A DNA stretch of 61,583 nt from contig NZ_LZGM01000059.1 in NCBI RefSeq assembly GCF_001690195.1, positions 1 through 61,583 on the forward strand. Direction: 5' to 3'. The notes under the pieces were generated by a model, which worked only from the letters and a program-made list of their open reading frames with translations, was not told the DNA's origin and did no database searches. This document shows positions 59,574 to 61,403 of the stretch, in pieces (position 1 is the stretch's first letter; each line of letters begins with the position of its first letter). The position numbers and the translations under genes were made by a program. This DNA comes from Gilliamella sp. wkB108. GTDB taxonomy: Bacteria; Pseudomonadota; Gammaproteobacteria; Enterobacterales; Orbaceae.

Positions 59574-60989
59574 TTACTGCCAATTAATACATGCTGCCCG
59601 TTGGCTGTAGGGACCAAAAAATGCTATATCTATATCTCCTGATCCTGACCAAATATTAAGTGGATCACCTACTTTACTTATATCTGTTGTATAATAATCA
59701 CCTAGTTCCCATTCACTGTTAGGATAATAATTTTCTCCAAGATCGCCCCACTCATTCATTATGCCACCAACATATCCTGTTGAGCTAGAATAACTAATCC
59801 AGCGTGTAAAATGATTATTTGGTGAATCACCAATATCCCAATCTACCTCCGAATTATGAGCAGTTGCATTGGTCAAATCCCTGACACCAGCTAAACCATA
59901 ATTTGTATAATAATTATTACAATAATCTATTGCCAAATTGTAAGGATGTGTTTGACCTGGTTTTGCAACTAACCAACGTGTTATTTCGAATGTATATAAA
60001 ACTCTTTGTTTAGCTTGATCGGCATAAATCGCAAACGCTGAATTTGAATATTCTCTTTCATTACCGTTAGATTTACTGTTTGGACCTCTGAGAGTAACTC
60101 GTAAAATATCATTATTTTCGGCGGTTAAATCTAATGTTACACCTTTTCCATATTGAGAATACACTTTGCTACCATTGATATTAATGATATCGTTAGCTGT
60201 CGCATTATAGATTTTCATTTTAAAAAATAGATTATCTGATGCGATTGTCGGGAAATTTTTATTTTTTTCCGCAATATTACGTGTTTGTATTTTAAAACCC
60301 TGCGACGGATCCCATTGGTGTGCCGGTCCTTTAAATTTATCCGCGCTCGGATTTAAATTCGGTTGCGCATAACACACATACGGAGGAAAAGTTGGTTTGA
60401 TGTAATAAGTGTGAGAACTTGAAGTCAAACTACGATCCCGTGGAACACCATATTGGGTTTGAAGTGTGGTATTAGTCGCTTCAATTGTCAATGTATAAGG
60501 TGAATCACACGGATTTAATCTATCGGCTAAATTAATACTACTGGTTATATCTTGACCTGATACCGTTTTCCAGGTGAGTTTCAAATCCCCGGTTGCTGAC
60601 GGATTTTTATCGCCATCTTCATCTAACCAATAGTTATAATTTTTCACCAAACTATCAAAACTGATTGATGGATAACTGTTTGTGGGGATCAGAGTCACTA
60701 CACTTGCAAATGTATCTGATTCATTAGGTAAAATAATTGGATTAGTTACACTTGATGTTGTTGAAGGCGTAATTTTAGAGTTATCTGATAATGTCAGCCC
60801 TAAAAAATCATTCAGATTCAGCACCTTTGTTGCACCACTATCTAACGTATAATAAGGTGCAGTACCGTTGATTTCTCTTAACGTTGTTGCTGATAAGGCT
60901 TGTGCATTATTTAAGATAAGAAATGATGATAAAAATATCAGTCGAAAAAGACGGGTTCGCTTTAATCTACTTGCTCTTATTAAACCCAA
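59574..60989 (-). CDS. Secreted surface-type protein, 5' end phase-variable (out of frame as sequenced)
   Basis: A continuous frame of 471 codons from a TTG at 60989, with positively charged start and hydrophobic signal core (LFRLIFLSSFLILNNAQA), then a long Ser/Thr/Asn-rich beta-type body with a few Cys (near the centre and CINWQ at the end). No family recognised; an exported adhesin or carbohydrate-binding protein is plausible. The TTG has no ribosome site. The proper starts are ATG 61078 (AAGGG at 6 bases) and possibly ATG 61062, both upstream of an AGCC repeat. With 15 units neither is in frame: ATG 61078 ends after DYWV, ATG 61062 shortly after. Sixteen or thirteen units would join ATG 61078 to this frame. 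Confidence 0.8.
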   Translation of the reverse strand: MGLIRASRLKRTRLFRLIFLSSFLILNNAQALSATTLREINGTAPYYTLDSGATKVLNLNDFLGLTLSDNSKITPSTTSSVTNPIILPNESDTFASVVTLIPTNSYPSISFDSLVKNYNYWLDEDGDKNPSATGDLKLTWKTVSGQDITSSINLADRLNPCDSPYTLTIEATNTTLQTQYGVPRDRSLTSSSHTYYIKPTFPPYVCYAQPNLNPSADKFKGPAHQWDPSQGFKIQTRNIAEKNKNFPTIASDNLFFKMKIYNATANDIININGSKVYSQYGKGVTLDLTAENNDILRVTLRGPNSKSNGNEREYSNSAFAIYADQAKQRVLYTFEITRWLVAKPGQTHPYNLAIDYCNNYYTNYGLAGVRDLTNATAHNSEVDWDIGDSPNNHFTRWISYSSSTGYVGGIMNEWGDLGENYYPNSEWELGDYYTTDISKVGDPLNIWSGSGDIDIAFFGPYSQRAACINWQ

Positions 60990-60994
60990 TAATC

Positions 60995-61057
60995 GGCTGG
61001 CTGGCTGGCTGGCTGGCTGGCTGGCTGGCTGGCTGGCTGGCTGGCTGGCTGGCTGGC
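60995..61057. repeat. Tetranucleotide repeat (GGCT)15
   Basis: Fifteen perfect GGCT units (60995-61054) plus GGC; on the coding (minus) strand AGCC. It lies between the ATG codons at 61062/61078 and the signal peptide. On the minus strand it would encode SQPA repeats. Perfect tracts of this length and unit are hallmarks of slipped-strand phase variation. Confidence 0.98.
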
Positions 61058-61078
61058 CACATAACTATATTTTATCAT

Positions 61079-61403
61079 AAAAAACCCTTATATAAAATGC
61101 TTACCTTTTGTTTTTATTAATTTTTTACATTGTTCTGTGCTTCGTTTAGTCATAAAAATAGTCTTGGGCTAAATATCTAACCCAACCACTTAACGATAAA
61201 CTTAAATTGTCTTAATTATATAGATACTCTGGAGGCATTTCAAAAATTATGGGGAACATTTATGTAATGAAGTGTAAAGAATGAATGTATCACAAACTAG
61301 CACATTTTTTCTTAATGGTTACGTAATAAAGTCTTTAACCAGATAAATGGTTAAATCGAGATAATTAAAACTATCTAAATTAATTACGCGATTAAATCTT
61401 ACA
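61079..61403. other. Upstream region of the phase-variable gene
   Basis: This 325-bp stretch has no credible gene. AAGGG on the minus strand (61085-61089) is the ribosome site for ATG 61078; AT-rich text further upstream must hold the promoter. The end runs into copy 2 of the direct repeat. Confidence 0.6.

Follow-up and report, generated by a model that had tools for sequence, protein, structure and literature searches.

Most work on repeat-driven phase variation has dealt with pathogens. Among the described systems closest to the one analysed here, the Neisseria gene modA carries an AGCC tract in its 5′ coding region together with a distal ATG, a proximal ATG and an OFF frame, and is described as expressing from the distal ATG, strain MC58 being OFF with 21 repeats and ON with 22 (PMC2667262). 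In Escherichia coli K1, neuO has a heptamer, AAGACTC, in the 5′ coding region; a full-length product is reported only if the repeats are divisible by three, and their number runs from 3 to 53 among 64 genomes (PMC13001214). The Neisseria opa genes are a multigene surface-protein family with CTCTT repeats in the region of the leader peptide, gonococci having up to 11 such genes (PMC3960869), and in the large vlhA family of Mycoplasma gallisepticum 12 GAA repeats are said to mark the mainly expressed gene, genes with other repeat numbers being capable of expression too (PMC6258824). Haemophilus repeats are a further case of this mechanism class (PMC2651432). Here we analyse a gene on the minus strand of a contig of Gilliamella sp. 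wkB108 (NZ_LZGM01000059.1, positions 1 to 61,583; this whole stretch of 61,583 nucleotides is called the window), in which an AGCC tract lies between two ATG codons and a predicted signal peptide.

The best explanation of this arrangement, at a probability of about 0.85, is translational phase variation from the ATG at 61078. The gene would be a member of a large paralogous family of predicted exported Gilliamella proteins; ribosomes would start at ATG 61078 and read the tract as (SQPA)n, and they would enter the signal-peptide frame only at a fitting unit number (13, 16, 19 and so on). Replication slippage of the tract would flip the gene at random, and the sequenced allele, with 15 units, would be OFF.

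The tract and its reading frames

The following features, all on the minus strand, make up the putative switch.

60995 to 61057, minus strand: AGCC/GCCA tract of 15.75 perfect units, reading (SQPA)n in every frame (repeat finder, frames and shuffles).
61076 to 61078, minus strand: distal ATG, the putative family start codon, reading MIKYSYV-A-(SQPA)n, out of frame at 15 units and in frame at 13 or 16 (frames computed; it resembles the MLKYSC-type starts of other AGCC copies).
61085 to 61089, minus strand: predicted ribosome-binding site AAGGG, 6 bases 5′ of the distal ATG (4-base match to the Shine–Dalgarno consensus).
61060 to 61062, minus strand: proximal ATG without a ribosome-binding site, reading MWPASQPA..., in frame at 14 or 17 units (frames computed).
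60987 to 60989, minus strand: TTG without a ribosome-binding site, the sole ATG, GTG or TTG in the frame of the open reading frame (ORF) over the stretch from the tract to where the family model begins.
60897 to 60968, minus strand: predicted signal peptide RLKRTRLFRLIFLSSFLILNNAQA (by eye from the translation; it aligns with the hydrophobic segment of 27 relatives).

At 60995–61057, Tandem Repeats Finder reported period 4, 15.8 copies and 100% matches; counted by letters, the tract is 15 whole GGCT units and three further bases on the plus strand, that is, AGCC on the minus strand. There were 13 matches to AGCCAGCCAGCC in the window against a maximum of 0 across 100 dinucleotide-preserving shuffles, and three tandem AGCC occurred in none of the 100. 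A sequence-only reading of the window had placed fifteen perfect units between the ATGs and the signal peptide, with AAGGG six bases 5′ of ATG 61078, and both are present, the latter at 61089–61085.

The 471-codon ORF (60989–59574) is open from the tract onward and has a signal-peptide-like segment at its beginning, and at 15 units neither ATG is in its frame. As computed from the frames, the present allele reads MIKYSYVASQPA...SQPADYWV and then a stop from 61078, and MWPASQPA...IIGFNKSK and then a stop from 61062. The earlier claim that both starts run into stops at 15 units is borne out, as is its arithmetic, by which 61078 joins the ORF at 13 or 16 units and 61062 at 14 or 17. The locus has two traits of a simple-sequence-repeat switch: a perfect short repeat within the 5′ coding region, with a unit that is not a multiple of three, and ahead of it a start codon with a ribosome-binding site, the frame being set by unit number. 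It was seen in one assembly of one strain, the window being the whole contig and ending 505 bases upstream of ATG 61078, and the comparisons of unit number below are between copies of the family.

AGCC arrays and the start of translation

We gathered 287 copies of the family, none counted twice, and assigned a start codon in 201 of them from a sequence motif and nearness to the array; the frame was not used. An array is present in 175 of the 287, with a unit of 7 bases in 135 (heptamers thus being the largest class), 4 in 25, 8 in 10, 6 in 3, 9 in 1 and 5 in 1, so that the unit length is a multiple of three in only 4 of the 175.

AGCC arrays are tied to this family. In the window's genome, the 107 matches to (AGCC)5 (100 listed, the other 7 deduced from the length of the last array) form eight arrays of 13, 15, 15.75, 16, 17.75, 20, 21.75 and 27 units, each immediately 5′ of a family member, and complete listings for two other genomes, G014 (five arrays) and G020 (three), again placed the arrays at family members. 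Such (AGCC)5 arrays occur in 8 of 44 Orbaceae genomes, and the reversed pattern gave no match in any of the 44. A different tetranucleotide was seen in the window's genome (G000) at L152 on contig C78, a family member with a 22.75-unit AAGC array upstream.

Six genomes supply the 22 long AGCC arrays for which a start was assigned; 7 of these are in frame, and the two other phases hold 7 and 8, as free slippage would give. Between tract and signal peptide, a stop codon interrupts the protein frame in none of the 22, and the other two frames in 21 of 22 each, one of these 22 stretches being only 6 bases long. Within or past the tract there is no in-frame ATG (0/22) and no in-frame start with a ribosome-binding site (0/22), and a GTG or TTG lacking one is found in 7 of 22. 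Ahead of the assigned ATG, by contrast with a shifted control (0/22), 20 of the 22 copies have a ribosome-binding site (at least four Shine–Dalgarno matches); by the same test so do 62 of 113 copies with three heptamer units (2 at the control) and 36 of 53 array-less copies (3 at the control). ATG 61078 aligns with the starts (MLKxxC) of other AGCC copies and of repeat-less members. Because the protein frame is open past the tract and no in-frame start with a ribosome-binding site lies there, ribosomes most likely come from upstream and read through the tract. The frame, stop and ribosome-binding-site data from the 22 copies agree with the original proposal that a frame-deciding 4-base tract precedes a signal-peptide protein.

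Translation might instead begin past the tract at TTG 60989, leaving the tract as a 5′ untranslated element or as inert sequence; the sequence-only reading had named such a start as one that would overturn phase variation. This TTG heads the ORF found by mechanical search, but it has no ribosome-binding site, as is the case for every in-frame start after the tract in the 22 AGCC copies, and an untranslated tract does not account for a protein frame that is open past it in 22 of 22. Nor does it account for array units that are stop-free in all 21 kinds (copies with an assigned start), the stop-free expectation for random 7-mers being about 52% at 33% GC but 89% once their composition is matched to that of the units, with only 5% T. 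We regard a start at this TTG as very improbable.

Two copies in the window's genome bear on the role of the second ATG: with 16 units, L039 reads ON from the distal ATG, and with 17.75 units, L040 reads ON from the proximal ATG only, its equivalent of ATG 61062 being in frame as predicted. This state, the frames of both ATGs and the two-ATG AGCC layout shared with Neisseria modA (PMC2667262) all fit the suggestion that the three phases give strong ON from the distal ATG, weaker ON from ATG 61062 and OFF. The frames in that scheme stand, but its weaker ON does not fare as well. ATG 61062 lacks a ribosome-binding site, only 4 of the 22 arrays with an assigned start have an ATG 12 bases or less from the tract (as does L174, whose start is unassigned), in L172 the proximal ATG leads directly into a stop, and the modA account describes expression from the proximal frame in Neisseria as minimal, with H. 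influenzae Rd differing (PMC2667262). As ATG 61062 is not conserved, a weaker ON state is doubtful, and we consider a three-level switch unlikely.

Similarity over the 500–900 bases 3′ of the array is 88% or more in eleven pairs of long-array copies, and unit number differs in 10 of them; with one pair set aside (L081, at a contig end, and L071, with Ns; 11.43 versus 25.14 units), 9 of 10 usable pairs differ, within and between genomes at one genome per species, the within-genome pairs not being independent. The window's copy and L040 (15.75 versus 17.75 units, 94% alike) are among those that differ; the L052 pair (4.0 versus 3.0 units), cut by a contig end or Ns, was left out of the count. 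Read from the assigned ATG, array-less members are in frame in 38 of 53 cases, in phase 1 in 8, in phase 2 in 4, and in frame with a stop in 3; several of the phase-1 copies hold two heptamer units.

Judged by substitution ratios, the coding sequences of the family are kept: the median ratio of nonsynonymous to synonymous substitution rates (dN/dS) was 0.44 in 120 pairs of array-bearing copies drawn from 676, 107 of the 120 setting one three-unit copy against another. This bears on the idea that the window's gene is a decaying silent gene, or part of a gene-conversion archive, in which the tract no longer matters. The gene is out of frame, and so is nearly all of the heptamer branch, as that idea would have it; yet the ORF is intact across the family model, the median dN/dS among array-bearing copies is below 1, and the tract is long and perfect, whereas a dead tract should erode. 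We take silence of this kind to be improbable.

Several observations weigh against a translational switch at ATG 61078. In 86 of the 287 copies the start stayed unassigned, and 15 of the 53 that lack an array do not read cleanly in frame. With one genome per species, no same-locus length variation between isolates is visible. A long peptide ahead of a signal peptide is unusual and might impair export. After heptamer arrays, the ratio of nonsynonymous to synonymous differences (pN/pS) is 0.67 in the true frame and 0.69 and 0.62 in the others; since it is about equal in all three frames, we claim constraint past the heptamer array as openness only.

The family and its protein

The locus belongs to a large paralogous family that is shared by Gilliamella and other Orbaceae and bears no library family name, and the sequence-only reading, which had treated it as a contingency locus taken singly, needs to be widened in this respect. 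Of 40 genomes searched, the window's among them, 22 gave matches, all in 1 of 17 genera, and its own genome gave 20. With an alignment of 28 members, 41 of 44 Orbaceae genomes matched, again including its own, with from 2 matches upward per genome among the best 33 or so scored candidates in each; ten genomes searched individually had 19 to 59 matches each, partial and remote ones included, and the window's genome had 24. Among 75 named records, 70 are Gilliamella, one is Frischella japonica and four are Orbaceae bacterium ESL0721 or ESL0727. A contig scan with the window protein as single query confirmed 0 of 49 stretches, and a scan with alignment A1 confirmed 246, from which 75 loci were retained. 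In viral contigs, 19 stretches fitted a pattern and none of them codes for a relative; a plasmid collection held no match to the family.

The end of the window (61583) and the ends of contigs C78, C84, C39 and C104 of the same genome fall in or near family members. As several contigs end in this way, the assembly may be interrupted by the copies, of which there may be more than were counted. Elsewhere in the family, L058, L071, L227 and L231 have long arrays of 7- or 8-base units (CCACGCAA × 20, ACAGCAC × 25, AAAAACAC × 10 and AAACGCC × 9) in genomes matching Orbaceae ESL0721, ESL0727 and Gilliamella Pas-s25.

The earlier remark that no described locus of this kind is known in this bacterial group is in keeping with the open literature searched, most subscription papers and all bioRxiv preprints being outside its scope: among the matches listed for Gilliamella phase variation, repeats or surface proteins, none describes the family.

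Beyond the signal peptide, the gene has two further features.

59577 to 60896, minus strand: predicted mature protein of about 440 amino acids, with no Pfam or NCBIfam match at an E-value (E) ≤ 1; the C-terminal 155 or so amino acids are weakly Lcl_C-like.
59530 to 59559, strand not assigned: inverted repeat just past the stop codon, a possible terminator; it was found on the plus strand, and its use by the minus-strand gene is our reading.

The family consensus has a signal peptide with ALSA at its end, cysteines and tryptophans that are invariant or nearly so, and YRxPxVxDLTNA...YWTxD in its C-terminal part. The absence of any Pfam or NCBIfam family at E ≤ 1 in the window protein includes a methyltransferase domain as in modA, and the 28 members gave nothing credible against the same libraries, their best Pfam match, ‘PT disordered repeat’ (E 0.0083), being dismissed as a low-complexity family. 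A sequence search against solved structures gave no match below E 0.34, and five proteins searched against PHROGs gave best E-values of 0.035 and 0.49. In a profile comparison with 25 Lcl_C domains, the C-terminal part reached E 2.8e-4 at 41% probability, with E 0.24–0.56 for reversed and N-terminal controls; no Lcl_C domain (PF07603) scored above the Pfam cut-off in the window's genome. This is a suggestive lead toward an Lcl_C-like binding domain, and nothing beyond. The protein would be exported, its tract would slip in the living cell, and it may act at the surface, for example in attaching to the host or in evading phage or competitors.

Genes of this type get mis-annotated by gene callers: the database version of the window product (P0001) starts within the mature part, without the signal peptide. 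Another record, P0019, starts MSYTNIVRAGSRQQAAGSRQQAA... and is apparently an ON-phase heptamer allele. Away from this gene, the window holds at 19244–19637 a direct repeat of 111 bases in 3.5 copies, possibly that of an RnfC-like gene.

Heptamer relatives and known systems

Arrays of exactly three heptamer units dominate, and 113 of 114 are in one identical OFF phase (for example L056, L143, L154 and L244), the other being in frame. Four-unit arrays are in frame in 3 of 4 cases, two-unit arrays are in phase 1 in 3 of 3, and the single-unit form L176 is in frame. Strain wkB178 illustrates the balance: of its 39 copies, 34 are three-unit and OFF, one four-unit and ON, one two-unit in phase 1 and two array-less and ON, with one start unassigned. 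After three-unit arrays, a stop interrupts the protein frame in 0 of 114 and the other frames in 114 and 108. The short heptamer arrays with an assigned start comprise 16 kinds of unit, uniform inside each array. The unit can differ, at equal unit number, between copies whose similarity is about 91% over 900 bases downstream and 98–99% over 75–178 bases upstream. It is hard to picture arrays turning over and coming back to three units unless selection acts.

Other ways of expressing the three-unit class were rejected. From the repeats onward, 59 of 114 have no start codon in the protein frame, and only 3 of 114 have one with a ribosome-binding site; as to frameshifting, inspection by eye showed no slippery site shared by the units. 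A pattern of a single ON copy with four units in each genome would fit wkB178, G006 and G042; no in-frame four-unit copy was found in the other genomes with three-unit copies (for example NO3 and G022), the search having covered most of these only in part, and we therefore make no claim of exclusivity.

A promoter-like site lies at the start codon of these copies. TTGACA-16/18-TATAAT, matching at 10 or more of 12 positions and ending just 5′ of the array, is present in 97 of 101 short heptamer arrays, at 12/12 in 49 of them, against a background at random positions of 0.2% in coding and about 3% in upstream sequence; an ATG lies 9 to 20 bases 5′ of the array in 99 of the 101. Among 108 three-unit copies, 97% have such a site in the 20-base bin that directly follows the ATG; for any other bin within 300 bases upstream the share is at most 6%. 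The site is found in 7 of 21 AGCC copies and 10 of 32 array-less in-frame copies. At the window's locus, it has a 9/12 remnant, and a better match lies further upstream.

61069 to 61096, minus strand: weak promoter-like site TTTATA-16-TAAAAT (9/12), its second hexamer just 3′ of the start codon; a degenerate form of the element that is strong in the heptamer relatives.
61215 to 61243, minus strand: promoter-like site TTGAAA-17-TATAAT (11/12, motif match), the candidate promoter of a translatable transcript.

The second of these is a candidate only, because nine such sites were found in the region against 12.8 expected in shuffles.

In heptamer copies, a near-consensus predicted sigma-70 promoter thus overlaps the start codon, and its transcript would begin at the repeats, after the ATG, so that simple translation from that ATG fits poorly; the conserved ribosome-binding site nonetheless speaks for the ATG as the start. 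A part for the promoter in repeat instability or silencing is speculation. We can tentatively picture, at somewhat less than even odds, a system resembling antigenic variation in Orbaceae gut symbionts, with dozens of exported paralogs, most heptamer members held OFF at exactly three units until a fourth turns single members ON and others on free AGCC tracts, and with a start-codon promoter firing into the repeats that may set their instability or silence. We know of no counterpart to such a system. Many family copies in these bacteria read as OFF, and a repertoire of such size in a bee-gut symbiont invites the question of what a non-pathogen needs it for, whether host, rival strains or phage. 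The host animal is described as one that can be kept gnotobiotic, and the fixed three-unit OFF phase over many heptamer units offers a test case for selection on switching rates.

Set beside the known systems, the window's locus is like modA in its AGCC tract in the 5′ coding region, its two ATGs and its OFF frame, as far as the published account of modA describes them (PMC2667262). It is unlike modA, a type III DNA methyltransferase, in that its product has a predicted signal peptide, no library family and dozens of paralogs. The neuO unit AAGACTC resembles AAGACAC, a unit of strain wkB178, but neuO is described as a single phage-borne enzyme gene (PMC13001214), whereas Gilliamella has many paralogs at three units, which here is an OFF phase. 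In opa the repeats lie inside the leader (PMC3960869); in Gilliamella they lie ahead of it, with units that vary by copy and up to 59 matches per genome, partial ones included. The vlhA repeats are placed some 40 bases ahead of the transcription start (PMC6258824), those of Gilliamella inside the reading frame; as to mutually exclusive expression of the vlhA kind, the phase states, which are what was read here, show several array-less copies per genome as ON. The mechanism class is well known; the family, and its three-unit OFF phase with a promoter, is the part worth following.
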